From an uncultured Alphaproteobacteria bacterium (GTDB lineage Bacteria; Pseudomonadota; Alphaproteobacteria; HIMB59), in contig CABYWI010000003.1 in the NCBI GenBank assembly GCA_902522585.1, positions 1 through 48,668 on the forward strand: DNA of 48,668 bases. Direction: 5' to 3'. A program made the translations under genes and the position numbers. The notes under the pieces were generated by a model that saw only the letters and a list, made by a program, of their open reading frames with translations, was not told where the DNA came from and did no database searches. Positions 2,580 to 19,691 of the stretch are shown in pieces; position 1 is the stretch's first letter, and each line of letters begins with the position of its first letter.

Positions 2580-3605
2580 ATGAGAAAATTATCTCTAGTA
2601 CTGGCTTCGTTTTTGGCTTTTGCTTTTACATTTGCTACTACAGCAGCAAAAGCGGACATTGAAGCTTGTCTTATTACTAAAACTGACATCAACCCTTTCT
2701 TTGTAAAAATGAAAGAAGGTGCTGAAGCACGCGCAAATGAACTTGGTGTCAAATTATCATTCTTTGCGGGTAAAATTGATGGTGACCACGAAACTCAAGT
2801 GAGAGCTGTTGAAACTTGTATCGCTTCTGGAGCAAAAGGTATTTTAATTGCCGCTTCAGATACAAAAGCGATCGTACCTGTTCTTAAAAACGCACAAGAT
2901 AACGGTCTTCTAGTTATTGCACTAGATACTCCGCTTGAGCCTATCACTGCTGCTGACTCTACTTTTGCAACAGATAACTTTAAAGCCGGTGAATTAGGTG
3001 GTGCTTGGGTAGCTGCAAAATTAGGAGCTGATACTGCTAATGCTAAAATTGCAATGTTAGATCTTAATGAAAGTCAGCCATCTGTTGGTGTTCTTAGAGA
3101 CCAAGGTTTCTTAACTGGTTTTGGTATTGACGTAAAAGATGTATCAAAATGGGGTGATGAAGATGACCCACGTATCATTTGTAACGAAGTTACTAATGGT
3201 AATGAAGAAGGCGGAAGAACCGCAATGGAAAAATGTCTACAAAGAGATCAAGACATTAATGTTGTTTACACAATCAATGAGCCAGCTGCTGTAGGTGCTT
3301 ATGAAGCACTTAAGGCGATTGGTAAAGATGATGGTAGCGTTCTTATTGCTTCAGTTGACGGTGGTTGCCCTGGTGTAGCTGACGTTGAAAGAGGTATTAT
3401 TGGAGCAACATCTCAACAGTACCCACTATTAATGGCTTCACTAGGTGTTGAGGCTATTAAAGCATGGGCTGAAGATGGAACTAAACCTGAAAATACTCCA
3501 GGACTTGATTTCTATAACACAGGTGTGAACCTAGTTACTGATAATGCAGCTGCGGGTGTAGAGTCTATTAGTGTCAAAGAAGGCATGGATAGATGTTGGG
3601 GCTAA
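2580..3605 (+). CDS. frcB: Sugar ABC transporter substrate-binding protein, fructose/ribose class
   Basis: This 341-residue periplasmic binding protein belongs to the peripl_BP_4 (RbsB/FrcB) class. It begins with a signal peptide (MRKLSL, a hydrophobic core, then AAKA) probably cut near residue 25. The two-lobe ligand-binding protein follows, with [16 protein letters not shown] near the mature N terminus and later [17 protein letters not shown] and [14 protein letters not shown]. It would catch a sugar in the periplasm for the permease and ATPase encoded next. The strong Shine-Dalgarno and own promoter suggest high expression, usual for binding proteins. The separate short ATPase and nearby FrcK-like kinase point to the Frc fructose system of rhizobia. 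Ribose, mannose or another sugar is not excluded. Confidence 0.88.
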
Positions 3606-3650: not shown

Positions 3651-3669
3651 ATATCTAAAAAAATATTTG

Positions 3670-4764
3670 ATGAATAAAATATCTGAAGACATCTCTAAGG
3701 ATCTTAAAGACCAACCTAAATTTTCTGGTGATATTGGTTCAAAAGATCAAGATCACCATTCATTTGAATTAGGTGAACAAACAACATTAAAAAAAATTCA
3801 ACATTTCCTTCATGGAAATCCTACCATTGTTCCAGTAATTATTTTAATTCTCAGCGTTATAGGTTTTGGTTTTATAGCCGGTGGAAAATTTTTCTCTGCA
3901 TTTAATTTATCTTTAATTGTTCAACAAGTGACAATCGTTGGAATTTTAGCTGCAGCTCAAACTTTAATTATTTTAACAGCAGGTATTGATTTAAGTGTCG
4001 CAGCCATGATGGTGCTTGCATCAGTGTTCATGGGAAAACTTTCTGTCGAAATGGGGATCCCTACTTTACCTGCTATCATGGTTGGAATGATTTCAGGGGT
4101 TGCAACTGGTGCCTTTAATGGATTGCTAGTTACAAGACTTCGACTTCCTCCCTTTATTGTTACTTTAGGGACTTGGAATATATTTTTTGCTTTAGTAATT
4201 TTCTTCACTGGATCTCAATCAATTAGAAGTTCAGATATTGAAATTAATGCCCCCCTTCTTCATTTTTGGGGTGAAAGAATAAATCTGGGCGGTTTTGTAT
4301 TTACTTATGGTGCATTTCTTATGATTGGTATATTTGTCTTTTTGTGGTTTTTACTGAATAAGACAGCATGGGGTCGCCATGTTTATGCTATAGGAGATGA
4401 TAAAGATGCAGCAGAACTTTCTGGGATAAGAACAGATAGAATGTTGGTGTCTATATATGCCGTAGCAGGTTTAGTTGTTGCAATAGGTGCTTGGGTCTCT
4501 ATTGGTCGAGTGGGGTCTGTTTCGCCAACAAGCTTTTATGAAGGAAACCTTGACTCAATAACAGCAGTTGTGATTGGTGGTACATCCTTATTTGGAGGTC
4601 GAGGAACAATTATAGGTTCTCTTTTTGGAGCGTTAATCGTTGGCGTCTTCAGCTCAGGTTTGTCTATAGCGGGTTTAGATGTTTTATGGCAAAGATTTGC
4701 ATTAGGTTGTCTAATTATTATTGCTGTTGGTATAGATCAGTGGATTAGAAAGGTGTCAAACTAA
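3670..4764 (+). CDS. frcC: Sugar ABC transporter permease, fructose/ribose class
   Basis: This membrane protein of about 364 residues (BPD_transp_2, RbsC/FrcC class) has a hydrophilic N-terminal stretch of about 45 residues and then many hydrophobic segments, starting with PVIILILSVIGFGFIAGG. The family motif LTAGIDLSVAAMM is present, as is the late VIGGTSLFGGRGTIIGSLFGALIVG. It would form the transmembrane channel for the sugar. The ORF track starts at TTG 3667; the adjacent ATG at 3670 is taken here. No clear Shine-Dalgarno precedes it, so expression may depend on read-through past the hairpin just upstream. Its stop TAA shares one base with the ATG of the ATPase gene (TAATG). Confidence 0.9.
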   Translation: MNKISEDISKDLKDQPKFSGDIGSKDQDHHSFELGEQTTLKKIQHFLHGNPTIVPVIILILSVIGFGFIAGGKFFSAFNLSLIVQQVTIVGILAAAQTLIILTAGIDLSVAAMMVLASVFMGKLSVEMGIPTLPAIMVGMISGVATGAFNGLLVTRLRLPPFIVTLGTWNIFFALVIFFTGSQSIRSSDIEINAPLLHFWGERINLGGFVFTYGAFLMIGIFVFLWFLLNKTAWGRHVYAIGDDKDAAELSGIRTDRMLVSIYAVAGLVVAIGAWVSIGRVGSVSPTSFYEGNLDSITAVVIGGTSLFGGRGTIIGSLFGALIVGVFSSGLSIAGLDVLWQRFALGCLIIIAVGIDQWIRKVSN

Positions 4765-5528
4765 TGGAACCTATCCTTGTAGCTAAAAATTTATCTAAGA
4801 AGTATGGTAAGGTTGTGGCATTAGACGATGCTAACTTAGAGCTCTATCCTGGGGAAGTTCTAGGAGTAATCGGGGATAACGGTGCAGGAAAATCAACACT
4901 TATCAAAGTGCTCTGTGGTGCTGTCATTCCAGACAGCGGTGAAATTCTATTAGATGGCAAACAGGTTAGCTTTACATCTCCTATAGAAGCCAGAACACTT
5001 GGAATTGAAACAGTTTATCAGAACTTAGCTCTCTCTCCTGCTTTATCAATAACCGACAATATGTTTTTGGGTCGAGAAATCAGACAAAAAGGTTTTATGG
5101 GTAAATTTTTAAGATTTCTGGATAAAAAAGCTATGGCTGAAGAAGCGAGAAAAAGACTCTCAGAATTAGGACTTCTAACTATTCAAAATATAAATCAGCT
5201 TGTAGAAACTTTATCTGGTGGTCAACGTCAGGGTGTCGCTGTAGCACGCGCCACTTCCTTTGGTACTAAGGTTGTAATCATGGACGAACCTACCGCTGCT
5301 TTAGGCGTAAAAGAAAGTCGAAGAGTTTTAGAGTTAATTGGTGAGGTAAGAGCAAGAGGGATACCAATCATTTTGATCTCTCATAATATGCCTCACGTTT
5401 TTGAAGTAGCTGACAGAATTCATATCCATCGTCTAGGCACAAGATTATGTGTTATTGACCCCAAAAAATATGAAATGTCTGATGCTGTTGCTTTTATGAC
5501 TGGCGCAAAAGAACCACCTGCAAATTAA
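4764..5528 (+). CDS. frcA: Sugar ABC transporter ATP-binding protein, single ABC domain (FrcA-like)
   Basis: This 254-residue ABC ATPase has Walker A GDNGAGKST (residues 37-45), signature LSGGQRQGV near residue 150, Walker B VVIMDEPTAALGV, and the switch His in ILISHNM. It would energise sugar uptake. It has one nucleotide-binding domain, unlike RbsA or XylG (about 500 residues, two domains), which matches FrcA of the fructose system. It is coupled to the permease by a TAATG overlap. Its stop overlaps the stop of the convergent FrcK-like kinase by 4 bases, leaving no intergenic room for a terminator. Confidence 0.9.
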   Translation: MEPILVAKNLSKKYGKVVALDDANLELYPGEVLGVIGDNGAGKSTLIKVLCGAVIPDSGEILLDGKQVSFTSPIEARTLGIETVYQNLALSPALSITDNMFLGREIRQKGFMGKFLRFLDKKAMAEEARKRLSELGLLTIQNINQLVETLSGGQRQGVAVARATSFGTKVVIMDEPTAALGVKESRRVLELIGEVRARGIPIILISHNMPHVFEVADRIHIHRLGTRLCVIDPKKYEMSDAVAFMTGAKEPPAN

Positions 5529-6157
5529 TTCTCCAAATAGTAATCTGCTTTAATACTATTTTTAATTACACTAACTCCATTGGGTAAATCATTTTCATAA
5601 ACTTTTTGATTTATTTGGTCCTGATTTAAATCAAAACCTTTCCATCTTTCAATTAATCTCTTTTCAAGAATTGAATCTTCACAATGAATCATGATGCTTG
5701 AATCAAAATAATCTTTAAGAGCGTTCCATGGATGTGAATTTAATAAAAGATAATTCCCTTCAACAATGATTGTTTTTTTATTTTCCGAAATGGTGACTGC
5801 TGATGATCTTGATAACTCTAAAGAGCGATCAAAGACAGGGATAACAACCTCTGGTTCATTAGCTAATCTGATCAGAAAATTTTTTAGACCCATGACATCA
5901 AATGTTTCTGGTGAACCTTTACGAGAAAGAAGATTTTTAGAACTTAAAATTGCATCATCAAAGTGAAAACCATCCATTTGTAATATTTCTGAAGGAAAGC
6001 CTTTGGAATTAAGATCCTCGTTTAATTTATTAGATATTGTACTTTTTCCAGATGCCGGGGGTCCGGCTAGAGCAATAAAATAACGATTTTGAGAGTTATT
6101 TTGGTCTAAATTATAAGTCAAGATTGACAACAACTCATAATAATCAAGAGATTTCAT
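5525..6157 (-). CDS. frcK: P-loop kinase of the uridine kinase/PanK-like type (FrcK-like)
   Basis: The protein (210 residues) is a small P-loop kinase with Walker A GPPASGKST (residues 32-40), a QMDGFHFDD segment typical of the uridine kinase/phosphoribulokinase/PanK-like group, and TIIVEGNYLLLN. In Sinorhizobium the homologous frcK closes the frcBCAK operon; its exact substrate is not firmly known to me, with sugar phosphorylation or a regulatory role proposed. Here the gene lies on the opposite strand, tail to tail with frcA and downstream of xylB, so it is probably transcribed with xylB. Its ATG at 6157 is 9 bases past the xylB stop. The function is inferred from family and location. Confidence 0.75.
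   Translation of the reverse strand: MKSLDYYELLSILTYNLDQNNSQNRYFIALAGPPASGKSTISNKLNEDLNSKGFPSEILQMDGFHFDDAILSSKNLLSRKGSPETFDVMGLKNFLIRLANEPEVVIPVFDRSLELSRSSAVTISENKKTIIVEGNYLLLNSHPWNALKDYFDSSIMIHCEDSILEKRLIERWKGFDLNQDQINQKVYENDLPNGVSVIKNSIKADYYLEN
5535..5563 (+). terminator. Weak terminator of the ABC operon, inside the convergent kinase gene
   Basis: AAATAGTA (5535-5542) and TACTATTT (5554-5561) are perfect inverted arms with an 11-base loop, ending in TTTTT. The stem is AT-rich, so efficiency is doubtful. It sits just after the ATPase stop and overlaps the 3' end of the opposite-strand kinase gene. Confidence 0.4.
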
Positions 6158-6166
6158 AGGTTCCTT

Positions 6167-7618
6167 TTACTCCTCTTTGATGTAAAAATTTTTCCAGTTT
6201 TGAAATCTTTCATTTAATAAATCAGAAAGCTTAGGATCTTTCTCGATTGTTTTGATAACTTTTGGGGCCGAAAGGGATTCTTTAGGTTTTAGATTATTAA
6301 ATCCCAGATATGCAATACGAGCAGCACCATAAGCGGCCATCGCCTCTGATGCGTCAGTAAGAGATAAATTTCGATTTAAAATTGAAGCAAGTAATTTAAG
6401 CCAAGAGTCATTTTTGGAACCTCCACCGATTGCATAAATATTTTCTAATTTTATTCCAGTTTTCGATAAAGCTTGATAGTTGTCATTGAGGCCAAAAGAT
6501 ATACCTTCAATTAAAGCATAAATTAGAGAAGTCCTATCACTGTCAATTCCCATTTGATGAAAGCTTGCCCTTGCATGAGGATCATTTATTGGAGTTCGTT
6601 CACCTGTTAAATAGGGGAGAAAATAAGGAGCATTATTTATTTCCTCTTTAGAGCTCATAACTTTTGATAACTTTTCTGTGATTTCATTAATAGATGAGTC
6701 AAATGTATTTATAAACCAATTAACATTAGAGGTGCATGAAAGCATCACAGACATTAAATGCCAAGTATTAGGTAAGCAATGACAAAAAGAATGTATAGCA
6801 TCATCATAATTTTTTAAAAAACTTTTTGTTGAACCAAAAATTACACCCGATGTTCCCAAAGAGATGGATGCATCACCTTCTTCGTATAATCCAAGTCCAA
6901 CAGCAGCAGCAGCATTATCTCCTGCCCCACCATATACTTTACAGCTTGCATCAAAGCCGTATTGTTCAGCGATCTCTTTTTTTAAAATCCCTGTTTGTTC
7001 AGTTCCCTCACATAATGCAGGCATTTGATCTAATCTCATTGAACTAGCCTCTAATAAAACAGATGACCATTTGCGATGACCAACATCTAGCCAATATGTT
7101 CCAGATGCATCAGATAAATCGCTAAAGTATTCTCCAGTCAGATAAAGTCTTAAATAGTCTTTCGGTAACAAGACTTTATGTATTTGATCAAATATTTTTT
7201 GTTCATTGTGCTTGAGCCATAATACTTTAGGAGCAGTAAAACCAGCCATTGCAATGTTTCCAGAGATATCCAAAACTGAACTATCTGACATAATTTCCTT
7301 ACAAGCTTGATGACTTCGGGTGTCATTCCACATCATACAAGGTCTTAAAACTTCGTTATTTTTATCAATACAGGTCGCACCATGCATATGACCAGAAAAG
7401 GAAATAGATTTAATTTTATTTAAATTAATATCATCTTTTAATTTAAGAAGGCATTGATCGAGGGCCTTAATCCATAGTCTTGGATCTTGCTCAGACCATC
7501 CGCTATGTAGGTTTATTAATGGAATTTCTTCACTCGATACTGATTTGATAAGTTCTTGTTCTTCCCCGATGAGCAGACATTTCATAGAGGAAGTTCCTAA
7601 ATCGATACCTAAATACAT
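6167..7618 (-). CDS. xylB: Xylulokinase (FGGY family)
   Basis: This FGGY kinase of about 483 residues begins MYLGIDLGTSSMKCLL and contains SFSGHMHGA, RPCMMWNDTRS, GGAGDNAAAAVG, SLGTSGVIFG and YLTGERTPINDP, all characteristic of xylulokinase. It phosphorylates D-xylulose to xylulose-5-phosphate, the donor substrate of the transketolase encoded nearby. The ORF track starts at a TTG (7636); the ATG at 7618 is chosen because FGGY kinases begin right at the GIDLGT strand. A TATAAT lies only 7 bases before this ATG, so the transcript may be nearly leaderless. The lyxose isomerase of this island could supply xylulose. Confidence 0.92.
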   Translation of the reverse strand: MYLGIDLGTSSMKCLLIGEEQELIKSVSSEEIPLINLHSGWSEQDPRLWIKALDQCLLKLKDDINLNKIKSISFSGHMHGATCIDKNNEVLRPCMMWNDTRSHQACKEIMSDSSVLDISGNIAMAGFTAPKVLWLKHNEQKIFDQIHKVLLPKDYLRLYLTGEYFSDLSDASGTYWLDVGHRKWSSVLLEASSMRLDQMPALCEGTEQTGILKKEIAEQYGFDASCKVYGGAGDNAAAAVGLGLYEEGDASISLGTSGVIFGSTKSFLKNYDDAIHSFCHCLPNTWHLMSVMLSCTSNVNWFINTFDSSINEITEKLSKVMSSKEEINNAPYFLPYLTGERTPINDPHARASFHQMGIDSDRTSLIYALIEGISFGLNDNYQALSKTGIKLENIYAIGGGSKNDSWLKLLASILNRNLSLTDASEAMAAYGAARIAYLGFNNLKPKESLSAPKVIKTIEKDPKLSDLLNERFQNWKNFYIKEE

Positions 7619-7625
7619 TGTAAAT

Positions 7626-7631
7626 ATTATA
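7626..7631 (-). promoter_or_regulatory. -10 box of xylB, close to the start codon
   Basis: On the minus strand TATAAT lies 7 bases before the xylB ATG. A start point about 7 bases downstream of the box would fall at or next to the ATG, giving a leaderless or nearly leaderless mRNA. No good -35 is seen at 16-18 bases. No Shine-Dalgarno precedes the ATG. Confidence 0.45.
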
Positions 7632-7687
7632 TACAAGTCATAGGGTTTTTCTATTTATACAATTAAAGAAAGTGGTAAATTATATAG

Positions 7688-8680
7688 ATGCCAAAATCAC
7701 TTAAATTAAAGTTAGAAAGAATTAGAAATCAAAAATATAAATCAAAGGATTTTATCATTGCGGATGCTAAAGATGGAGATCTAGCCATGGGAATAACTAC
7801 CCCTGGGCCTCAGAGAGATAATAAAGGAAAAATTATTCAAGTCTTTAAAAAACTTAAAGATTATAAAAAGGCAATGGAGGTTATGACAAAATCTAAATTA
7901 GTTGACATCATGCTAATGTCAGCTTCTGTAGGAGAGTCTTTGGTAGAAAAAAAAATATTTAAAAGCTCACCAGTTACTCCAGCTATTAGAATGAATGATA
8001 CAAGTGATATTTGGTTAATGAGAAATAGTAATTATCGCTCTACCAATCCTCGTCCCTTTCAATCTGCAAGAATTGATAGAGTTAGTAAATTAGTTAATCT
8101 GGGATTATTTTCTGTGACATTTTCTAAAAATGTAGATTTTGATTTAGCAATGTTAAATTCTTATAGAAATTTTAGAATGGAGTCCTTAAAATATAAATTC
8201 TCCCATTTTTTAGAAGTATTTAACCCACCAATAGATGTTGGAATGAATAATGAGGAATTAGGTGACTATGTTAATGATTGTATTATCAAAGCTATTGCAG
8301 GACAAACAAAGGAGGAAAGACCACTTTTTTTAAAGATTGCATATAATGGTCCTAAAGCCATGGAGGATTTAGCAAGTTACGATCCAGAGAATTTAATAGT
8401 TGGAATTTTGGGAGGCAGCAAAGGGACAACAAGAGATTGTTTTGAATTAATTCATAAAGCCAGTAAATATGGTGCAAAAGTTGCTCTTTTTGGAAGGAAA
8501 ATTAACCTATCAGAGGATCCAATTGGCTTAGTTAAATTAATGAGAAAAGTTGTGGAAGAAAATACAACCCCAAAAGAGGCTGTCAAAATCTATCATGATC
8601 AACTTAACAAGAAAAAATTAATCCCTGATCGAAGCCTTAAAAAAGATCTTGAAATTACTGACTCAATTTTAAAATTATAA
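7688..8680 (+). CDS. Class I aldolase-like protein (DeoC/FbaB/LacD superfamily)
   Basis: No named family was recognised at full length, but this 330-residue protein shows the marks of a Schiff-base TIM-barrel aldolase. LFLKIAYNG contains a KxxY motif (Lys216) where FbaB/LsrF-type aldolases hold the catalytic lysine. Then GILGGSKGTT (from 239) and ALFGRKI (267-272) match the C-terminal phosphate-binding GG...GR(N/K)I motifs. It probably cleaves or forms a phosphorylated ketose. It starts just downstream of the divergent xylB promoter and runs tail to tail into the PfkB kinase gene (6-base stop overlap). A PfkB product such as a ketose phosphate is a plausible substrate; this is inference. Confidence 0.65.
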   Translation: MPKSLKLKLERIRNQKYKSKDFIIADAKDGDLAMGITTPGPQRDNKGKIIQVFKKLKDYKKAMEVMTKSKLVDIMLMSASVGESLVEKKIFKSSPVTPAIRMNDTSDIWLMRNSNYRSTNPRPFQSARIDRVSKLVNLGLFSVTFSKNVDFDLAMLNSYRNFRMESLKYKFSHFLEVFNPPIDVGMNNEELGDYVNDCIIKAIAGQTKEERPLFLKIAYNGPKAMEDLASYDPENLIVGILGGSKGTTRDCFELIHKASKYGAKVALFGRKINLSEDPIGLVKLMRKVVEENTTPKEAVKIYHDQLNKKKLIPDRSLKKDLEITDSILKL

Positions 8681-9649
8681 TTTCTTTATATTAGGTAGGT
8701 TTCCTGATGATGAGTCTATTTTCATCATAGCGCTACCCGCAGCATGTGCTTTTTTTAATATTTTTTTCATATCCCAAGACTCATGTACTCCATAAATAAA
8801 AGCTGCACAGAATGCATCACCCGCACCTACAGAATTAATTATTTTTTTTCTATTTATTGACATAGAACTAGTGTGAATGATTTCTTCTCTTGAAATATAC
8901 AATGACTCTTTTGAATGATGTATAACCAAAGCTTTACTAATTCCCTTTGAAAATAATTTTTTTGATATATTGATTATTAATTTTTTGTTTAATCTTTTTT
9001 TTGAGTTGATTACTGTTTTTTTAAATAATAATTCTGCTTCGATTTCATTTAAAAGCAAATAATCAGTAAAAGGTAGTGCGCTTAATACTATCTTTTGAAA
9101 AGAAGAATCATTATTAGAAACTAAATCTAAAACTGTGGTAATATCTTTTTTTTTTGCTTGTGACAAAACTCTAGAAAGGCGAGTGTTTTTTCCAGAAAAT
9201 TTATCTAAATTTCCTAAAAGAGTAATATAGCCTACGTATAGAATTTTAGGGTCAGATTTTAATTTTTGGATTTGAAAATGATTTATATCTAATAAGTTAT
9301 TTGCTCCAGCATGATACAAAAATGTTCTTTCATTTTTTTTTTCAATCATACATACCGTATGGGATGTAGGAGCTTTTTGAGTCGGTTTTAAGAATTTTGT
9401 ATCAATTTTATTTTTGCGACAATGTTTTTTTATATAACTCGCATTTTCATCTACTCCAATCGAACCCATGGCAATCATAGGATATTTAAATCCAAGTGAG
9501 TATAAATCCGAGAGTACATTTGAAGGTCCACCTCCAACACACTGGAAGCTCTCAATTATAGGTTCTAATTTACCCCGCTGTGGTAAAGTATTGATTTTGT
9601 ATGTAGTATCTACACACCACATACCTAATCCAATAATTCCTTTGGGCAT
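8675..9649 (-). CDS. PfkB-family sugar kinase
   Basis: This 324-residue kinase carries the PfkB/ribokinase motifs GGGPSNVLSDL (residues 39-49, substrate binding) and SVGAGDAFCAAF (273-282) with catalytic Asp278. It would phosphorylate a sugar or sugar acid with ATP in the cytoplasm. Its ATG overlaps the stop of the lyxose isomerase gene by one base (TAATG), so isomerase and kinase are made together. That suggests the kinase acts on the ketose made by the isomerase (xylulose or fructose). The region from about 209 to 235 is very lysine-rich and probably a surface insertion. Substrate and position of phosphorylation are unknown. Confidence 0.85.
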   Translation of the reverse strand: MPKGIIGLGMWCVDTTYKINTLPQRGKLEPIIESFQCVGGGPSNVLSDLYSLGFKYPMIAMGSIGVDENASYIKKHCRKNKIDTKFLKPTQKAPTSHTVCMIEKKNERTFLYHAGANNLLDINHFQIQKLKSDPKILYVGYITLLGNLDKFSGKNTRLSRVLSQAKKKDITTVLDLVSNNDSSFQKIVLSALPFTDYLLLNEIEAELLFKKTVINSKKRLNKKLIINISKKLFSKGISKALVIHHSKESLYISREEIIHTSSMSINRKKIINSVGAGDAFCAAFIYGVHESWDMKKILKKAHAAGSAMMKIDSSSGNLPNIKKL

Positions 9650-10314
9650 TAAATTTCATTCCACAAAGGATGAACAGGCTCCTCATCTTCTTCTATTTTT
9701 GTAAAACGACCCACTGGCTCTAAGAAATAATTATCATTATTATCATCATTTACTTGTGAAACTTCACCAGCCATTACCATTCCAGTGCCCTTAGCTGCAT
9801 AAAATTTATGATAAATATTTCTTTCTACAGTTACGCTTTGGCCTCTTTTTAAAATTAAAGGCTCATGAGGTGAGACTTCAACTTCAAAACCATCAACTAA
9901 AATAGTAATTTTATCATCTTTATCTTTTAACTCTTCGTCAACCTTTACAAATTCAATAGCTAAATCTCCGCCTCCACGATTAATGATGTCTTCTAATTTT
10001 ACTTTATGACTATGATAAGGAATTTCTTGACCTTCTTGCATGAACAAGAGTTTTTCAGCGTAAGGCTTATCTTGTGTATTTCCTTGAATGCCATTTCTTA
10101 TACAAAATAAAGTTATTCCTTGTTGCTTGAATAACCCTTTGCCAAAATCAGTAACATCCCAACCCATTTGGTGCTCTTTTAAGTATTTAGATGTAATGGG
10201 TTGTTCTAAATATTCAGCTTTAGACCAATATCCCCATTGAGGCAAAACCCAAAGATATTCATCCATCATCTTTTTTGCATTAACAATAGCTTTGTTAATT
10301 TCAGATCTTTTCAT
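9649..10314 (-). CDS. D-lyxose/D-mannose ketol-isomerase (cupin)
   Basis: This cupin isomerase of about 221 residues begins MKRSEINKAI, as D-lyxose isomerases do, and has WGYWSKAEYLEQ and metal ligands in IPYHSHKVKLEDI (His101, His103) and IYHKFYA (His169). Members convert D-lyxose to D-xylulose and often D-mannose to D-fructose using Mn2+. The ORF track begins 17 codons earlier at a start inside the divergent promoter; 10314 is preferred from family alignment. It is coupled to the PfkB kinase gene by TAATG. It shares a 45-bp divergent promoter region with the dehydrogenase gene. A D-lyxose to xylulose to XylB to transketolase route is complete in this window. Confidence 0.85.
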   Translation of the reverse strand: MKRSEINKAIVNAKKMMDEYLWVLPQWGYWSKAEYLEQPITSKYLKEHQMGWDVTDFGKGLFKQQGITLFCIRNGIQGNTQDKPYAEKLLFMQEGQEIPYHSHKVKLEDIINRGGGDLAIEFVKVDEELKDKDDKITILVDGFEVEVSPHEPLILKRGQSVTVERNIYHKFYAAKGTGMVMAGEVSQVNDDNNDNYFLEPVGRFTKIEEDEEPVHPLWNEI

Positions 10315-10353: not shown

Positions 10354-10359
10354 CGTTTG

Positions 10360-11376
10360 ATGCAAACAATTCTTATAGATCCTTACCCAAGGGAGATGAA
10401 ATTAATTTTTACTCCAAAAAAATTACAACTTTTAAAAAAAAAATATCAATTAATTAACGTACCCAATAAGAATAAACAAAAATTTTATGAAAAGAATATA
10501 GCTAAAGCAGACTTTATTATTGGACAACCTGACTTACCCTCCTCTCTTTTAATGAAAGCAAAAAAATTAAAAGCAATATTTAATGTTGAAAGCAATTTTA
10601 TGGACAATATGGACTATGAATATTGTTTTTCTAATAATATCTATGTTTTATCGACAGCTCCTGTATTCGCACAAACAGTAGCCGAGATAGCGGTAGGTTT
10701 CACATTTTCTTTGAAAAGAGATATTCACCAATCGCACTTGGACTTTATTAAAGGACAAGAAAAATATGGCCTTGAAGGAAACAAAAGCAGTAGTTTATTA
10801 AAAAATAATCAAATTGGATTTATTGGCTATGGAGATCTTGCTAAAAACCTTCATCCATTATTAAAACCTTATACTGATAATTTTTTTGTATATGACCCTT
10901 GGCTTTCTGAAAAGCAATTAAGAGATTGGGGCACAGCTCCCTGTTCCCTTAATAAAATTTTCAAGAATTGTGATGTTATTTACATTTTAGCGACAATTAC
11001 TACAAAAAATCAAAATATGATTGATCACAAACTTTTAAATTTAATGAAGGAAAATGCTTGTTTGCTTATTTTAAGTAGAGCGAGTGTTATCAATTTTAAT
11101 GATTTAATTAAAACAATTAGAAAGAAAAATATTAAAGTTGCTACTGACGTTTTTCCTGAAGAACCAGTTAAAAAAAATGATCCCATAAGAAAAGAAAAAA
11201 ATATTTTGTTTTCTGCCCATCGTGCTGGCGCTTTAAATGAAGTTTTTTATGAAATGGGAGAGATTGTTTTTGAAGATTTACTACTATTGAGCAAAGGATT
11301 ACCACCGAGACTCTGCAGAAAAGCAGAATTAGAAACTGTAAAAAGCCTTCGTTCTAAACCAGTTGATGTTAATTAA
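10360..11376 (+). CDS. D-isomer 2-hydroxyacid dehydrogenase family protein
   Basis: The protein (338 residues from the ATG at 10360; the track starts at the preceding TTG) has the two-domain D-2-hydroxyacid dehydrogenase layout. NAD(P) is bound by IGFIGYGDLAKNL (near 152-164). The catalytic trio is visible as Arg in LSRASVIN (about 240), Glu in DVFPEEP (about 268) and His in SAHRAGA (about 287). It would interconvert a 2-keto acid and a D-2-hydroxy acid, for example glyoxylate or hydroxypyruvate reduction, or sugar-acid oxidation. Its setting between the isomerase/kinase pair and the fucU-rbsK run suggests a role in handling aldolase-derived fragments. Substrate unknown. Confidence 0.85.
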   Translation: MQTILIDPYPREMKLIFTPKKLQLLKKKYQLINVPNKNKQKFYEKNIAKADFIIGQPDLPSSLLMKAKKLKAIFNVESNFMDNMDYEYCFSNNIYVLSTAPVFAQTVAEIAVGFTFSLKRDIHQSHLDFIKGQEKYGLEGNKSSSLLKNNQIGFIGYGDLAKNLHPLLKPYTDNFFVYDPWLSEKQLRDWGTAPCSLNKIFKNCDVIYILATITTKNQNMIDHKLLNLMKENACLLILSRASVINFNDLIKTIRKKNIKVATDVFPEEPVKKNDPIRKEKNILFSAHRAGALNEVFYEMGEIVFEDLLLLSKGLPPRLCRKAELETVKSLRSKPVDVN

Positions 11377-11416: not shown

Positions 11417-11875
11417 ATGTTAATTAATATCGACCCAATTTTGAGTCCTGAAATCCTTCATACTCTTAGATCTATGGGTCATGGTGATAAATTAATTTTA
11501 AGTGACTCTAATTTTCCAGCTTACTCAATGAATTCAAGAGTGCACCGCTTAGACGGTGTGGATGCCGCGAGGGCTGCAAAAGCGATTTTATCTATATTTC
11601 CTCTTGATAGTTTTATTGAGTCCCCAGTTCAAAGAATGGAAATTGATGGAAAACCTGAAGAACTCAATGAGGTTCATAAAGAAATGATGCGAACAATAGC
11701 TGAAGTTGCAGGTGATCATTGGAAAGTTTCATCTATAGAGCGATTTAAGTTTTATGAAGAGTCCAAGAAGGCTTATGCCATCATTGCTACCAATGAAACA
11801 AGACCATTTGGTTGTTTCATTTTTACCAAAGGGGTCGTCAAACCCGATGGCTCTGTTTGGTTATTAGATCAGTGA
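11417..11875 (+). CDS. RbsD/FucU-family sugar mutarotase
   Basis: This 152-residue protein belongs to the RbsD/FucU fold, with SMGHGDKLILSDSNFPA near the N terminus (His22 and Asp24 in the active-site loop) and RLDGVDAARAAKAIL. Sequence and length fit FucU (about 140-150) better than RbsD. It would speed interconversion of alpha and beta (or pyranose and furanose) sugar forms so that the next enzyme receives the right anomer. It overlaps the ribokinase-like gene by 4 bases (GTGA), strongly linking the two. No Shine-Dalgarno is clear before the ATG; TATCAT ends 3 bases upstream. Confidence 0.88.
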   Translation: MLINIDPILSPEILHTLRSMGHGDKLILSDSNFPAYSMNSRVHRLDGVDAARAAKAILSIFPLDSFIESPVQRMEIDGKPEELNEVHKEMMRTIAEVAGDHWKVSSIERFKFYEESKKAYAIIATNETRPFGCFIFTKGVVKPDGSVWLLDQ

Positions 11876-12786
11876 GCATTTCAATACTAGGAATTTTTGT
11901 TGCAGATTTATGTTTTTTTGGTGATGAAATTCCTGTCCCAGGAAAAACAGTTCTTGGGAAAAAATATATAATTGGCCCAGGAGGTAAAGGTTCTAACCAA
12001 GCAATTGCAGCCTCTCGAGCAGGAGGTGATGTCTCATTTATTACTAAGCTAGGCCAAGATACTTATGCTGACATGGCCCTAAAACTGTATCAAGAAGCAG
12101 GGGTGGATACTCAAGCTGTTGTACTTGACTCTAATTTAAGCACTGGTGCTGCTGGAATTTTAATTAATCAACAGACTGGAGAGAATGCAATAAATGTAAT
12201 TCCAGGAGCTGCTGCAACAATCGATCGTAAGTTCATTGATGATAATTTATCCATTATCAATAATTCTAAAATTTTTTTAGCTCAATTAGAGACTTCAATT
12301 GATGCTACGATGTATGCTCTTAAATTGGCAAAAAAAAATGGATGTACTACTATATTAAATCCTGCTCCAGCCACAAATCTTCCTGAAGACTGTTTTGAGA
12401 ATGTTGATTTTTTTACACCTAATGAAACAGAGGCAGGTTTTTTTATCAATCAATCAATTGAAAGTGAAAAGGACTGCCAATCTGCCGCTAAAGTATTTTT
12501 AAAAAAGGGAATGAAAAACATTTTGATAACTCTGGGAGAAAAAGGATGTTTTTTTAAAAATAATGAAGAAGAATTATTAATTCCTGCAAAAAAACTTTCT
12601 GTTCCTGTTGTAGATACAACAGGAGCAGGTGACGCTTTTAATGGGGCTTTTAGTGTCGCTTTATCAAAGAATAAAAACTATAAAGAAGCAATTGAGTTTG
12701 CTAGTTTGGTAGCAGGAATTTCGGTTACTCGTGAGGGTGCTGCGAATTCAATGCCCACAATTGTTGAAATAGAAGAGAATTTATAA
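11872..12786 (+). CDS. Ribokinase-like PfkB-family kinase
   Basis: From the GTG at 11872 the protein has 304 residues, typical of ribokinase. It begins MSISILGIFVADL, continues with the substrate motif GPGGKGSNQAIAASRAGG, and ends with the catalytic DTTGAGDAFNGAF. The ORF track extends 20 codons upstream, but that part reads through the end of the mutarotase gene in another frame and lacks family similarity. The GTGA overlap with the mutarotase stop supports the start. It would phosphorylate ribose or a related sugar supplied by the ABC transporter. Its stop overlaps the following reductase ATG (TAATG). Confidence 0.88.
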   Translation: MSISILGIFVADLCFFGDEIPVPGKTVLGKKYIIGPGGKGSNQAIAASRAGGDVSFITKLGQDTYADMALKLYQEAGVDTQAVVLDSNLSTGAAGILINQQTGENAINVIPGAAATIDRKFIDDNLSIINNSKIFLAQLETSIDATMYALKLAKKNGCTTILNPAPATNLPEDCFENVDFFTPNETEAGFFINQSIESEKDCQSAAKVFLKKGMKNILITLGEKGCFFKNNEEELLIPAKKLSVPVVDTTGAGDAFNGAFSVALSKNKNYKEAIEFASLVAGISVTREGAANSMPTIVEIEENL

Positions 12787-13814
12787 TGAGTTATTCAGCA
12801 AATAAAAATCGATATCAAAATATGCAGTATAGAAATTGTGGAAGTAGTGGATTAAAACTCCCCCTTTTATCAGTTGGTCTTTGGCATAACTTTGGAGGAA
12901 ACAAAGGCATGTCTACTGAGTCCAAAAAAATTCTTTTTACCTCTTTTGATGCTGGTATTACACATTTTGATTTAGCCAATAATTACGGTCCTCCTTATGG
13001 AAGTGCTGAAGCTAATTTTGGAAAAATTATGCAAAGTGATTTTAAAAAGTATCGAGATGAAATGATTATCTCTTCAAAAGCTGGATATGACATGTGGAAT
13101 GGACCTTATGGAGAATGGGGATCTAAAAAACATGTTATTGCAAGTTGTGATCAAAGTTTAAAGAGAATGAAAATCGATTACGTAGATATTTTCTATTCTC
13201 ATAGGTTTGACCCGAATACACCTTTAGAAGAAACTGCTGACGCACTTGAGAGTATTTATCGATCTGGTAAAGCTTTGTATATAGGTATTTCTTCTTACTC
13301 GGCAAATAAAACTAAAGAAATGATAAAAATTTTAAAAAGCCGTGGCATTAAATTATTTATCCATCAACCGTCTTACTCCCTAATTAATCGATGGATCGAA
13401 AAGGATTTAACTAAAACATTAATTAAAAATGGAGTTGGTTGTATTGCCTTTTCCCCACTCGCTCAGGGCTTTCTATCAGATAAATATTTAAAAGGAATTC
13501 CTAGAGGAACAAGGGTAAGTGAGAATAGTTCTTTTAGTAAAGATTTAATTACTAAAAATAATTTAAAAATAATTAATAATCTTAATTCCATTGCTAAGAA
13601 ACGTGGTCAATCTCTCTCTCAATTAGCATTGGCTTGGGTTTTAAATAATAAGGCAGTAACATCAGCTTTAATTGGAGTTCGCACTGTAGCCCAACTTAAA
13701 GATAATTTGGCTGCCCTAAATAATTTAAAATTTACCAAAGATGAAATCAAAAAAATTGATAAAAACGCCAAAGAAGGAAATATAAATCTTTGGGCACCCT
13801 CTAGTTCATATTGA
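12786..13814 (+). CDS. Aldo-keto reductase, YghZ/L-glyceraldehyde-3-phosphate reductase-like
   Basis: This 342-residue aldo-keto reductase closely follows the YghZ (Gpr) pattern: YRNCGSSGLKLPLLSVGLWHNFG at the start, HFDLANNYGPPYGSAE with catalytic Asp and Tyr, SSKAGYDMWNGPYG with Lys, and YVDIFYSHRFDPNTP with His. YghZ-type enzymes reduce aldehydes with NADPH and were described for L-glyceraldehyde-3-phosphate and methylglyoxal. Here it may detoxify or recycle aldehydes formed by sugar cleavage. It is coupled on both sides, TAATG with the kinase and TTGA with the SGNH hydrolase, so it sits in a four-gene run. Family assignment is firm, the physiological substrate is not. Confidence 0.88.
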   Translation: MSYSANKNRYQNMQYRNCGSSGLKLPLLSVGLWHNFGGNKGMSTESKKILFTSFDAGITHFDLANNYGPPYGSAEANFGKIMQSDFKKYRDEMIISSKAGYDMWNGPYGEWGSKKHVIASCDQSLKRMKIDYVDIFYSHRFDPNTPLEETADALESIYRSGKALYIGISSYSANKTKEMIKILKSRGIKLFIHQPSYSLINRWIEKDLTKTLIKNGVGCIAFSPLAQGFLSDKYLKGIPRGTRVSENSSFSKDLITKNNLKIINNLNSIAKKRGQSLSQLALAWVLNNKAVTSALIGVRTVAQLKDNLAALNNLKFTKDEIKKIDKNAKEGNINLWAPSSSY

Positions 13815-15571: not shown

Positions 15572-16498
15572 ATGAATAAAAATTTTAAAATAGGAATTGA
15601 TTATGGAGGTACCAAAATTGAGGGTATCTTAATGGATCAAAGCGGAAAAGAGGTTCTAAGAAAGCGCTCTACCTATGATAAAAATTATCAAAGTGGTATT
15701 GACACGGTAAAGTCACTTGTTGAAGACTTAGATCAGCATAGTAGCTCAAAAAATACTGTTGGTATCTGTATTCCAGGCTTTTCCTCTCGAGAGACAGGTT
15801 TAGTAAATAATGCTAATTGTGTTTGGATCAACGATCAGCCTTTTAAAAAAGATTTAGAAAAAACTCTTGATAGAGAAATAAGAATTATGAATGATGCAAA
15901 TTGTTTTGCTTTATCAGAGGCTATTGATGGATCGGGAGCTAATTATCGTTCTGTTTGGGGGATAATTATTGGGTCCGGTTTTGGAGGATCATTTGTTTAC
16001 AACAAACAGGTTGTCGAGGGAGTGAATCAAGTAGCTGGAGATTGGGGACATCAACCTTTACCCTATCCTACAAAAGAAGAATACAGTCTAAATGTTCAAT
16101 GCAAAGTTGGTAATTGCAAAAGACCTCTTTGTGCTGAACAGTTTATTTCTGGAATTGGTTTTACTAAAATTTTTAATCAAAAATATGGAACAGATTTAAG
16201 AACACGTGAAATTGTTGCTCTTGAGGCTAACGGTGATGAACGAGCTAAAAAAGAATTTGAATTATATGAAGATAGGTTTGCACGTCTAATTGCAGTCATG
16301 ATTGGTATAGTCGATCCAGACGTAATAGTTTTAGGTGGAGGTATGTCAAATGTTGGAAGAATTTATAATAATATTCCAAAACTTCTTCCAAAATATACAT
16401 TTAGTGATAAAGTGCGAAACAAAGTTCTTCGAAATACTCATGGCGACTCTAGCGGTGTGCGTGGGGCAGCATGGTTATGGGACTCAGATAAGTTTTAA
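15572..16498 (+). CDS. ROK-family fructokinase/glucokinase (Mak-like)
   Basis: The 308-residue ROK kinase starts IGIDYGGTKIEGIL (phosphate loop), has catalytic Asp in NDANCFALSEA, GSGFGGSFV, and the ROK zinc site spread over DWGHQPLPYP (His) and NVQCKVGNCKRPLC (three Cys). The layout is that of manno(fructo)kinase Mak. It would make fructose-6-phosphate (or glucose-6-phosphate) in the cytoplasm. The next gene, a phosphofructokinase, begins on the base after its stop, so the pair would carry fructose to fructose-1,6-bisphosphate. This fits a fructose-class transporter. Glucose or mannose as substrate remains possible. Confidence 0.88.
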   Translation: MNKNFKIGIDYGGTKIEGILMDQSGKEVLRKRSTYDKNYQSGIDTVKSLVEDLDQHSSSKNTVGICIPGFSSRETGLVNNANCVWINDQPFKKDLEKTLDREIRIMNDANCFALSEAIDGSGANYRSVWGIIIGSGFGGSFVYNKQVVEGVNQVAGDWGHQPLPYPTKEEYSLNVQCKVGNCKRPLCAEQFISGIGFTKIFNQKYGTDLRTREIVALEANGDERAKKEFELYEDRFARLIAVMIGIVDPDVIVLGGGMSNVGRIYNNIPKLLPKYTFSDKVRNKVLRNTHGDSSGVRGAAWLWDSDKF

Positions 16499-17581
16499 GT
16501 GAAAAAAATAGGAATTTTAACAAGTGGTGGTGATTGCGGCGGATTAAATGCAGCTGTCCGTTCTATTTTTTTTCGTGCTAAAAATACCTACGGTATGGAA
16601 GTTCTTGGAATTCGAGATGGTACTGTAGGCTTAATGCAACGACCAGTTGCCTTTCTTCCTTTAGATTATCAAACATTCAGCGGTGCCTTATTAAGACAGG
16701 GTGGAACTTTTTTAGGAACAACTAATAAAGGTAATCCATTTAAATTCCCTATGGCTGATGGTTCTTTTAAAGATCGCTCTCAAGAAATTATAGATGGGTA
16801 TCACGAACTAGAGCTTGAGGGTTTAATTGTTATTGGTGGTGATGGAAGTATGGCAATTTTAACTGAAATTGCTAAACGAGGAAATTTGAAGATAGTCGCT
16901 ATTCCCAAAACAATTGATAATGATGTCGGAGCCACAGAAAGTTCAATTGGCTTTAATACTGCGGTAAATGTTGCTACTCAAGCACTTGATAACCTTCAGT
17001 CAACTGCAGCAAGCCACCATAGAACAATGATTTTAGAGGTGATGGGAAGAGATGCTGGTCATATAGCTATTAATGCAGGTATTGCTGGAGGGGCTGATGT
17101 GATTTTAATCCCTGAGCTTAATTACTCAATTAAAGGTGTGGTAAATAAGCTAACCGAAATGAAAAACAGAGGAGTTGTTCACTCTTTAATTGTAGTTGCA
17201 GAGGCTGTCAAAACTGAAGAAGGCAAAACATATGAAGTGGAATTTGCTGATGGCCAAAAAAGACTTGGTGGCATTGGTACTTATTTATCTGAAGCTATAA
17301 TGAAAAACACTGATATTGAATGCCGTGTAACTTCATTAGGTCACGTCCAAAGAGGTGCGCCTCCGACACCTAGGGATAGAATTTTGGCAAGTGCATTTGG
17401 TGTATATGCTGTTGATTTACTTGCTGAAGGTAAGTTTAATCGTATGGTAGCATGGAGAGATCGAAAAGTAATTGATGTTCCGATTTCGGAAGGTATTTCA
17501 ACTTACAAAGTTGTTGATCGTACCGACCCTCTTATTGAAACTGCATTAGCACTCGGCGTGTACGTCGGTGATATTTCTTAA
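16499..17581 (+). CDS. pfkA: 6-phosphofructokinase, group III type
   Basis: This 360-residue PFK begins MKKIGILTSGGDCGGLNAAVR. GGDGS (residues 113-117) has Gly where PPi-dependent enzymes have Asp (E. coli position 104), which favours ATP. IPKTIDND has Lys137 at the position equal to E. coli 124, where ATP-PFK A1 has Gly. This Gly/Lys pair is known from group III, 'mixed-substrate' PFKs such as the ATP-using actinobacterial enzyme. It would phosphorylate fructose-6-P, giving a working upper glycolysis. Start is GTG directly after the ROK stop. Many streamlined marine alphaproteobacteria lack PFK, so it is informative about lifestyle. Confidence 0.9.
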   Translation: MKKIGILTSGGDCGGLNAAVRSIFFRAKNTYGMEVLGIRDGTVGLMQRPVAFLPLDYQTFSGALLRQGGTFLGTTNKGNPFKFPMADGSFKDRSQEIIDGYHELELEGLIVIGGDGSMAILTEIAKRGNLKIVAIPKTIDNDVGATESSIGFNTAVNVATQALDNLQSTAASHHRTMILEVMGRDAGHIAINAGIAGGADVILIPELNYSIKGVVNKLTEMKNRGVVHSLIVVAEAVKTEEGKTYEVEFADGQKRLGGIGTYLSEAIMKNTDIECRVTSLGHVQRGAPPTPRDRILASAFGVYAVDLLAEGKFNRMVAWRDRKVIDVPISEGISTYKVVDRTDPLIETALALGVYVGDIS

Positions 17582-18412
17582 TTGTTTGCGCCTATATCGC
17601 ATATAGAAAATATAGCTCAATTTAAAAAAGAAATTTTTAATGGCAAAATTTATGTTTTTGAAAGATCTAAAATTGCAAGTCAACTTGTAGATCAAATTAA
17701 AAAAAAAATTGGAATTGAATACTCTGGGAAATTAGAAAAGCTACATCACCATTCTAATTGTGAGGAAATAAGTACCCATTTAATCGCTAATCTAAAAAAT
17801 ACTGAAATTTTTAAAAAACTATTTTATGAATTCTTAAATTCTATAAATTTTTTACAAGGAGAAAGTTACTGGGATAAGTTTGTTGTTCGTGTTGCGCCAG
17901 CTAAAAATAAATTTGGATATCGAGAAGCATCTAGAATAGGAGTTCATCGAGATACTTGGGGTACCAATATTCACCAACAAATAAATTGGTGGGCACCAAT
18001 TAGCTCAATTGAAGAAACAAACACAATGGTTTTCTTTCCTGAATATTTTGATAAACCTGTTAAAAATTCTACTAGCTCTTGGGATTTAAATATCTATTTG
18101 GAGAATCGAAAAAAAGGAGATTTCTCCTATCCCTCGGCCCCACAATTATTAGAAAACCTACCCGAAAATGTAAGAATTTTTCCCGTCACTATCAAACCCG
18201 GGGAAATCTTGTGCTTTTCTGGAAGTCATCTTCATAGCTCCTCAAAAGACAAATCTGAGTATACAAGGTTTAGCTATGAAGTTAGGACAGTTTGTCAAGG
18301 TGACTTGGACTCCAAAAATGAGGCGCGCAACATTGATTGTGAATTAAAATGGCAATTTCCTAAAATCTTTCGAAATATGAAAGACAATTCGCCAATGAAA
18401 ATAACTAGCTGA
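17582..18412 (+). CDS. Fe(II)/2-oxoglutarate oxygenase-like protein (PhyH-like)
   Basis: No specific family was recognised, but this 276-residue protein shows the double-stranded beta-helix iron site: GVHRDTWGTN (His122, Asp124), FSGSHLHSS (His216 or 218), and TRFSYEVRT with Arg229 where 2-oxoglutarate is bound. KPGEILCF before the distal His is also typical of phytanoyl-CoA dioxygenase-like enzymes. It would hydroxylate a small molecule or remove a methyl group oxidatively. It starts with TTG on the base after the PFK stop, and 28 bases separate its stop from soxB, so it bridges the sugar and C1 blocks. A role on a methylated amine or sugar derivative is speculation. Confidence 0.65.
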   Translation: MFAPISHIENIAQFKKEIFNGKIYVFERSKIASQLVDQIKKKIGIEYSGKLEKLHHHSNCEEISTHLIANLKNTEIFKKLFYEFLNSINFLQGESYWDKFVVRVAPAKNKFGYREASRIGVHRDTWGTNIHQQINWWAPISSIEETNTMVFFPEYFDKPVKNSTSSWDLNIYLENRKKGDFSYPSAPQLLENLPENVRIFPVTIKPGEILCFSGSHLHSSSKDKSEYTRFSYEVRTVCQGDLDSKNEARNIDCELKWQFPKIFRNMKDNSPMKITS

Positions 18413-18440
18413 ATAATTATTTTTTTGTTAGTTTTCATTC

Positions 18441-19691
18441 GTGAAAAAAAAATATTCTATTTTTAGTATAGCTAGAAACGCTTTTTCAGGACATAAAAAT
18501 TGGCCTAAAATGTGGCGTAGCCCTGAACCGAGGGAATTTTATGATGCAGTAATCATAGGTGGAGGGGGTCATGGATTAGGAACCGCTTACTATTTAGCGA
18601 AAGAACATGGATTAAAGAATATTGCTTTAATAGAAAAAGGCTGGCTTGGCGGAGGCAACACGGGACGTAATACTACTATTATTCGATCAAATTATTTATG
18701 GGATGATAGTGCTCACTTATATGAGCATTCTCTGAAGCTTTGGGAAAATCTATCTCAAGAACTCAATTACAATGTGATGTTTAGCCAAAGAGGTGTAATG
18801 AACTTAGCTCATAATGAACATGACATTAAAGAAATTAAAAGACGTGTAAGCGCTAATAATTTAAATGGTATCGACTCAGAATGGTTATCTAAAGAAGAAA
18901 TTCAAAAAATGGTTCCTATTATGAATACGGATAATCTCCGATATCCAGTTCTAGGTGCTTCATTTCAACCTCGTGGAGGTGTAGCTCGACATGATGCAAT
19001 AGCTTGGGGCTTTGCAATGCGCGCAGATGAAATGGGAGTTGATATTATTCAAAATTGTGAGGCAAAACAAATTAGAACTAAAAATGGAAAAATTGAAGGA
19101 GTTGAAACTTCGAAAGGATTTATTAGAGCAAATAAAATTGGTGTTGTAGCTTCTGGTCATACAGGTGTTCTTGCGGAGACCGCTGGGGTAAGACTTCCAC
19201 TTCAAAGTAAACCTCTTCAAGCTCTTGTCTCTGAGCCTATTAAACCAATTATAAATACTGTTGTTATGTCATCAGCAGTTCATGCTTATGTTAGTCAATC
19301 AGATAAAGGGGAGCTAGTGATTGGAGCAGGAACAGATAGTTATAATTCATTCACTCAACGAGGAGGATTTAATATTATAGAGGAAACTATTCGCGCAATG
19401 GTGGAACTTTATCCTGTGTTTGGTAAAATGAAAATGCTCAGACAGTGGGGTGGAATTGTTGATATTTGTCCTGATGCAAGTCCTATAATTAGTAAGTGTG
19501 ATGTGCAGGGTTTATTCTTCAACTGTGGTTGGGGCACTGGTGGCTTCAAGGCTACACCTGGTAGTGCTAATGTATTCGCTCATACCATTGCAAAAAATGA
19601 ACCACATCAAATAAATGCAGCATTTAATTTAGATCGTTTTGTAAGCGGTAAATTAGTTGATGAACATGGGGCTGCAGCAGTAGCTCATTAA
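18441..19691 (+). CDS. soxB: Sarcosine oxidase, beta subunit
   Basis: The 416-residue flavoprotein subunit has the dinucleotide-binding motif [20 protein letters not shown] (34-53) and [26 protein letters not shown] with His184 lies where the family attaches FMN covalently. It forms the catalytic core of heterotetrameric sarcosine oxidase, which oxidises sarcosine to glycine, passing the methyl carbon to tetrahydrofolate and electrons to O2. The start is GTG. The gene order soxB-D-A-G is that of classic sox operons, with 6 bases to soxD. Assignment is very sure. Confidence 0.95.

Follow-up and report, generated by a model that had tools for sequence, protein, structure and literature searches.

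The window, by which we mean the whole 48,668-nucleotide stretch of DNA that was analysed, comes from an uncultured alphaproteobacterium of the HIMB59 lineage and carries three tightly packed genes: one for an aldolase-like protein of 330 aa (7688..8680, plus strand), one for a PfkB-family sugar kinase of 324 aa (8675..9649, minus strand) and one for a D-lyxose/D-mannose ketol-isomerase of 221 aa (9649..10314, minus strand). All three reading frames sit where a preliminary description of this DNA had placed them, and the arrangement it reported was also found, as the isomerase stop and the PfkB start have one base in common (TAATG), in keeping with translational coupling, and the 330-aa gene runs convergent with the PfkB gene, overlapping it by 6 bases. 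Among genomes of the window's own family (f1), aldolase and isomerase are both present in 43, both absent from 9 and never found one alone. This identical presence and absence indicates that the arrangement is not chance, but the two genes adjoin and assembly gaps can drop both together, so the 43/9 figure overstates their independence.

Upstream of these genes is a transporter made up of an FrcB-type solute-binding protein (2580..3605, plus strand), an FrcC-type permease (3667..4764, plus strand) and an FrcA-type ATP-binding subunit (4764..5528, plus strand), followed by an FrcK-type P-loop kinase of the PRK09270 family (5525..6157, minus strand; PRK09270.1-5, 244 bits against a cut-off of 250). 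The four are 66, 54, 77 and 43% identical, respectively, to genes of the same types at an frc-like locus of S. meliloti, forming an orthologous set. The S. meliloti locus also holds a ROK regulator and FucU, and Neorhizobium homologues of the window transporter are annotated frcBCA (fructose); based on this synteny and annotation we take the S. meliloti record to be frcBCAK. In S. meliloti, frcBCAK takes up fructose, and mannose and ribose compete for uptake. The window transporter matches the FrcBCAK type, also with FucU nearby, and is a predicted fructose importer; a PDB search for the ligand of its binding protein returned distant matches only. FrcB and FrcK are parts of fructose transport (PMC2848018). 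Here the FrcBCAK-type genes are joined to the aldolase, PfkB and isomerase genes, whereas the S. meliloti-type locus has no adjacent aldolase. Binding proteins 60–72% identical to that of the window adjoin aldolase-PfkB pairs in Aureimonas, Bauldia and Rhodobacterales.

Divergent from the aldolase gene is a gene for the FGGY xylulokinase XylB (6167..7636, minus strand; TIGR01312, 515 bits against a cut-off of 380), which may form xylulose 5-phosphate. Beyond the isomerase, all on the plus strand, are a D-2-hydroxyacid dehydrogenase (10357..11376; PF02826), an RbsD/FucU sugar mutarotase (11417..11875; PF05025) 37% identical to the FucU beside the S. meliloti frc-like genes, a ribokinase (11812..12786; TIGR02152, 319 bits against 299.65) and an aldo-keto reductase of the L-glyceraldehyde 3-phosphate reductase subfamily (12786..13814; NF007388, 473 bits against 448). 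The dehydrogenase could catalyse a downstream step and the aldo-keto reductase is a possible aldehyde reductase. The earlier suggestion that these two enzymes use the released aldehyde or its acid finds mostly local links, with the pair of 2-hydroxyacid dehydrogenase and FucU recurring near the aldolase elsewhere in four Aureimonas loci only. Further out, the window edge carries the C-terminal half of a split transketolase (85-1035), whose partner half would fall outside the window, and then an FGGY kinase (1032-2513) that most resembles glycerol kinase (466 bits against a cut-off of 590). At 17582-19691, a weak match to a 'sporadic carbohydrate cluster' 2OG-Fe(II) oxygenase adjoins a sarcosine oxidase beta-type protein.

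A Pfam search placed the 330-aa protein in no family, and none of 46 diverse members of its own family matched a Pfam aldolase family (PF01791 etc.). Against the NCBIfam models for LsrF, ADH synthase and archaeal FBP aldolase, with cut-offs of 241–430, the family scores 22–34 bits, and 37 of the 46 diverse members weakly match ADH synthase; the window protein reaches roughly one tenth of the curated cut-offs, and its matches extend over the C-terminal phosphate region alone. With every Pfam and NCBIfam aldolase cut-off missed, the protein does indeed fit no named aldolase, as had been claimed. A sequence search of the PDB gave weak matches to MJ0400 and LsrF, in which K216 aligned with the lysine of MJ0400; in the LsrF alignment from the profile search, the lysine pairing with K216 is off by one. 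An AlphaFold model built from 46 sequences, taken from the window and related loci and leaving out plasmid records, showed a confident eight-strand (TIM) barrel pattern (pLDDT 92.6, pTM 0.92), and the best PDB matches in Foldseek were ADH synthase with DHAP or F1,6P bound, LsrF, archaeal FBPA and LacD (including 2qji, 3glc and 1ok6; 2qji with E 3e-10 and probability 1.00). Model and structure search both describe a (beta/alpha)8 barrel. The preliminary description had tied its aldolase reading to a lysine within such a barrel, and this reading stands, with K216 inside the predicted barrel on strand 6 (residues 215-217).

Nine residues (D26, K28, E176, K216, G242, G243, G269, R270 and K271) are invariant in all 83 dereplicated relatives, which are <80% identical to one another. 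The last five, unchanged in 83/83, are those of the GG...GRK phosphate motif that had been noted from the sequence. The KxxY motif fared less well, as its lysine, K216, is kept throughout and its tyrosine varies (Y in 71, F in 12). E176, the invariant acidic residue of strand 5, may serve as a general acid/base. The protein resembles LsrF, ADH synthase (MJ0400) and archaeal class I FBP aldolase in its TIM barrel, the presumed Schiff-base lysine on strand 6 and the C-terminal GG...GR phosphate site, but identity to them is only 14–18% over the structure alignments, and conserved blocks at both termini are additional features of the 330-aa family. Fold and residues together make a strong case for a predicted class I (Schiff-base) aldolase, with K216 as the candidate catalytic lysine on which the Schiff base would form.

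The window kinase matches PF00294 alone in Pfam (115.9 bits), reaches no NCBIfam equivalog cut-off and falls below the Pfam gathering score for PF25270 (prokaryotic ketohexokinase). The GAGD motif is found in 95 of 98 partner kinases and, together with PF00294, identifies them as PfkB kinases. We predict a ketose (fructose) 1-kinase, although phosphorylation at C1 is a regiochemistry that the sequence does not fix. The isomerase matches PF07385 (Lyx_isomer) with 261.4 bits (gathering score 20.8) and PDB entry 3kmh with E=3e-44, and scores 207 bits against the NCBIfam equivalog LyManIsomGneg (NF051472), below its cut-off of 350. PF07385 enzymes use lyxose and mannose alike.

At least 552 loci in the genome collection encode the aldolase, mostly as 'hypothetical'. 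It is present in 45 of 100 relatives of the window genome (close loci belong to alpha proteobacterium HIMB59 and uncultured Alphaproteobacteria) and in 24 genomes out of 132 in the Pelagicoccus order. Matches also occur on 47 plasmid records, most of them from Rhizobiaceae, and annotated copies are nearly always named 'hypothetical protein'. A spread sample of Pseudomonadota (n=399) had the aldolase in just 3 other genomes and the isomerase in 39, with zero overlap, suggesting that the isomerase is an optional part of the set; outside the trios of the HIMB59 clade, Halioglobus and Opitutales, PF07385 genes show no link to the aldolase. Besides an intact cluster on a different contig, one genome (G038) has a further, broken version of the entire cluster (locus L038, contig C6), in which genes are fragmented and the aldolase is interrupted by one in-frame stop.

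Gene neighbourhoods were compared across 65 dereplicated loci flanked by 2 kb or more in each direction, with neighbour genes in GC-rich loci called from stop-to-stop frames. A sugar kinase is found within 4.5 kb of the aldolase in 56 of these loci, and 39 have a member of one and the same PfkB subfamily no more than 250 bases away. Over 83 dereplicated loci, the PfkB subfamily is directly adjacent to and co-directional with the aldolase in 40; the corresponding counts are 12/17 for the isomerase, 1/28 for FGGY, 1/16 for CUT2 binding proteins and 0 for other neighbour classes. The aldolase-PfkB linkage recurs across phyla, and homologues lying consistently away from PfkB and isomerase genes, the outcome named beforehand as damaging to the proposal, were not what the survey found. 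Elsewhere the kinase is swapped. Some aldolase loci have an FAD polyol-phosphate dehydrogenase and an FGGY kinase, joined in Vibrio by an aldehyde dehydrogenase, and a polyol kinase with this dehydrogenase would likewise yield a ketose phosphate. In Opitutales, the PF25270 'prokaryotic ketohexokinase' takes the PfkB slot; DhaK/DhaL are located 3' of the aldolase in Lichenicola and near it in L081; and in Sinorhizobium americanum a protein of the ADP-dependent glucokinase/phosphofructokinase family adjoins it. Loci L138, L142 and L240 make up this ADP-PFK-family group, with the Pleomorphomonas and G406 copies labelled by similarity. The aldolase tree requires many changes of kinase type, and its isomerase-linked members fall in three separate regions.

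The trio of aldolase, isomerase and kinase recurs in HIMB59-clade bacteria, Halioglobus (isomerase, aldolase, PfkB) and Opitutales. Twelve Opitutales loci have both aldolase and isomerase, 7 with PfkB and 4 with ketohexokinase; the order in Pelagicoccus mobilis is DeoR regulator, aldolase, isomerase, ketohexokinase. A GH38 alpha-mannosidase or GH2 gene lies downstream in 5 of the 12 Opitutales loci with the isomerase and in 0 of 14 without it (Fisher p=0.012), and one of these five carries an Ig_mannosidase domain. Aldehyde dehydrogenases adjoin the aldolase in two Opitutales loci, as in Vibrio.

Several other neighbours were seen along the way. A 373-aa protein without a Pfam family is encoded between isomerase and PfkB in one locus (L216:9500-10618), and L212 and L225 have homologues of it close to their aldolase genes. 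The aldolase homologue of L055 (G062) has as neighbours a transketolase-like E1 beta and a lipoyl-alpha/beta hydrolase protein similar to components of acetoin dehydrogenase. In some clade members (L053, L073 and L074), the isomerase adjoins two genes, 276 and 281 aa long, the 276-aa gene of L053 being a PF01116 class II aldolase; the PF01116 gene of L241 comes after genes for an IolB-like protein and a sugar kinase. The 228-aa upstream neighbours in L076-L080 proved to be DUF2161 and unrelated.

We propose that the FrcBCA-type ABC transporter would import free fructose and mannose, the PF07385 isomerase would convert mannose to fructose, and PfkB would phosphorylate fructose at C1. The K216 Schiff-base aldolase would then cleave fructose 1-phosphate (F1P) to DHAP and D-glyceraldehyde, with DHAP passing into glycolysis and glyceraldehyde reduced or oxidised by neighbouring enzymes, perhaps the nearby aldo-keto reductase or 2-hydroxyacid dehydrogenase. 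We think it quite probable that the substrate is some ketose 1-phosphate; that it is F1P, with the whole mannose/fructose route, we hold to be slightly better than an even bet. The chain put forward in the preliminary description, from aldose to ketose to ketose phosphate to DHAP plus an aldehyde, is upheld in its sequence of steps by the conserved gene set (complete in Opitutales and Halioglobus), but less so in its substrate. Among the candidates listed there without a choice between them (xylulose 1-phosphate, fructose 1-phosphate and tagatose phosphates), F1P is favoured by the FrcBCAK-type transporter, the substitution of ketohexokinase for PfkB and the neighbouring mannosidases. Counting against the F1P reading, the window also holds a ROK fructokinase-like gene directly followed by an ATP-dependent 6-phosphofructokinase (15572-17581; 560 bits against a cut-off of 544), which amounts to a classical way of metabolising fructose within this island, and against the mannose link, the Opitutales mannosidase association amounts to 5 loci.

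A pentose substrate would work through the same enzymes: the isomerase would turn D-lyxose into D-xylulose, PfkB would add a phosphate at C1, and the aldolase would release DHAP and glycolaldehyde. PF07385 takes in D-lyxose isomerases, class I ketose-phosphate aldolases can be promiscuous, and the xylulokinase gene beside the aldolase indicates that xylulose is handled at the locus; its position between transporter and aldolase keeps a D-lyxose/D-xylulose role in play. However, a 1-phosphate route would be superfluous for xylulose where a xylulokinase exists, and the FrcBCAK-type transporter and the mannosidases at the Opitutales trios indicate hexoses, making a xylulose 1-phosphate aldolase unlikely. 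Judging by titles and abstracts, the papers that a literature search returned on such an aldolase deal with synthetic pathways or are reviews, and a search for 'prokaryotic ketohexokinase' returned nothing. To us it is less likely again that the protein cleaves FBP (or tagatose bisphosphate) and that PfkB is a 1- or 6-phosphofructokinase. The fold neighbours do include FBP and tagatose-1,6-bisphosphate aldolases and an ATP-PFK lies within the same window, but a PF01791 aldolase is present in 9 of 9 HIMB59-clade genomes tested, and a PF01116 class II member also occurs in the clade. The one PF01791 member inspected (L243) is FbaB, above its NCBIfam cut-off, and adjoins a GAPDH-like gene; we therefore ruled out a housekeeping FBP aldolase here and consider FBP cleavage improbable as the main job. 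Since the ABC importer brings in free sugar, a 1-phosphofructokinase would also be without substrate unless a ketose 1-kinase exists. A search for PF00274 aldolases gave no match in the genomes examined, and none in the control genomes either.

The presence of DhaK/DhaL after the aldolase in Lichenicola and near it in L081 would suit a fructose 6-phosphate aldolase releasing DHA, for phosphorylation by DhaKL, and glyceraldehyde 3-phosphate. We give this a very small chance, as the proteins nearest in fold are aldolases of the DHAP type that have the GG...GR phosphate site, a ketohexokinase takes the place of PfkB, and DhaKL might equally phosphorylate glyceraldehyde or a ketose. It seems just as improbable that the protein has a non-catabolic role as a carbon-carbon ligase or thiolase-like enzyme in the manner of ADH synthase or LsrF; these two are its nearest sequence models, but at the low scores and limited C-terminal coverage given above, and the context is one of sugar import and phosphorylation rather than quorum sensing or aromatic synthesis.

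In animal fructolysis, ketohexokinase, aldolase B and triokinase take fructose through F1P to DHAP and glyceraldehyde, and the proposed F1P cleavage follows the same course. It differs in using an aldolase of the LsrF/ADH synthase/archaeal FBPA type instead of the PF00274 type, a PfkB or PF25270 kinase, and an isomerase that adds mannose. Among prokaryotes, a 2024 study found that a haloarchaeal ketohexokinase forms F1P in vivo (PMC11519228). In that fructose/mannitol route of Haloarcula hispanica, which also has an aldolase gene in the ketohexokinase cluster, F1P is phosphorylated again by 1-PFK and the resulting FBP is then cleaved (PMC11519228), whereas no 1-PFK was recognised in the operon at the aldolase-ketohexokinase loci studied here.

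We put at about even the odds that this is a bacterial counterpart of liver fructolysis, in which one hitherto unannotated aldolase family cleaves F1P directly and is served by interchangeable ketose 1-kinases (the PfkB subfamily, PF25270, and possibly DhaKL or a polyol kinase with the FAD dehydrogenase) and an optional mannose isomerase, in hosts as diverse as streamlined marine bacteria, rhizobia and Verrucomicrobiota. If so, a 'hypothetical protein' of several hundred genomes would acquire a function, and a new F1P-type aldolase would become available for biocatalysis. Bacteria would have a fructose/mannose route with direct F1P cleavage, whereas the prokaryotic ketohexokinase route demonstrated by experiment adds a second phosphate first (PMC11519228), and this would explain the possible use of mannose and fructose by a streamlined open-ocean lineage.
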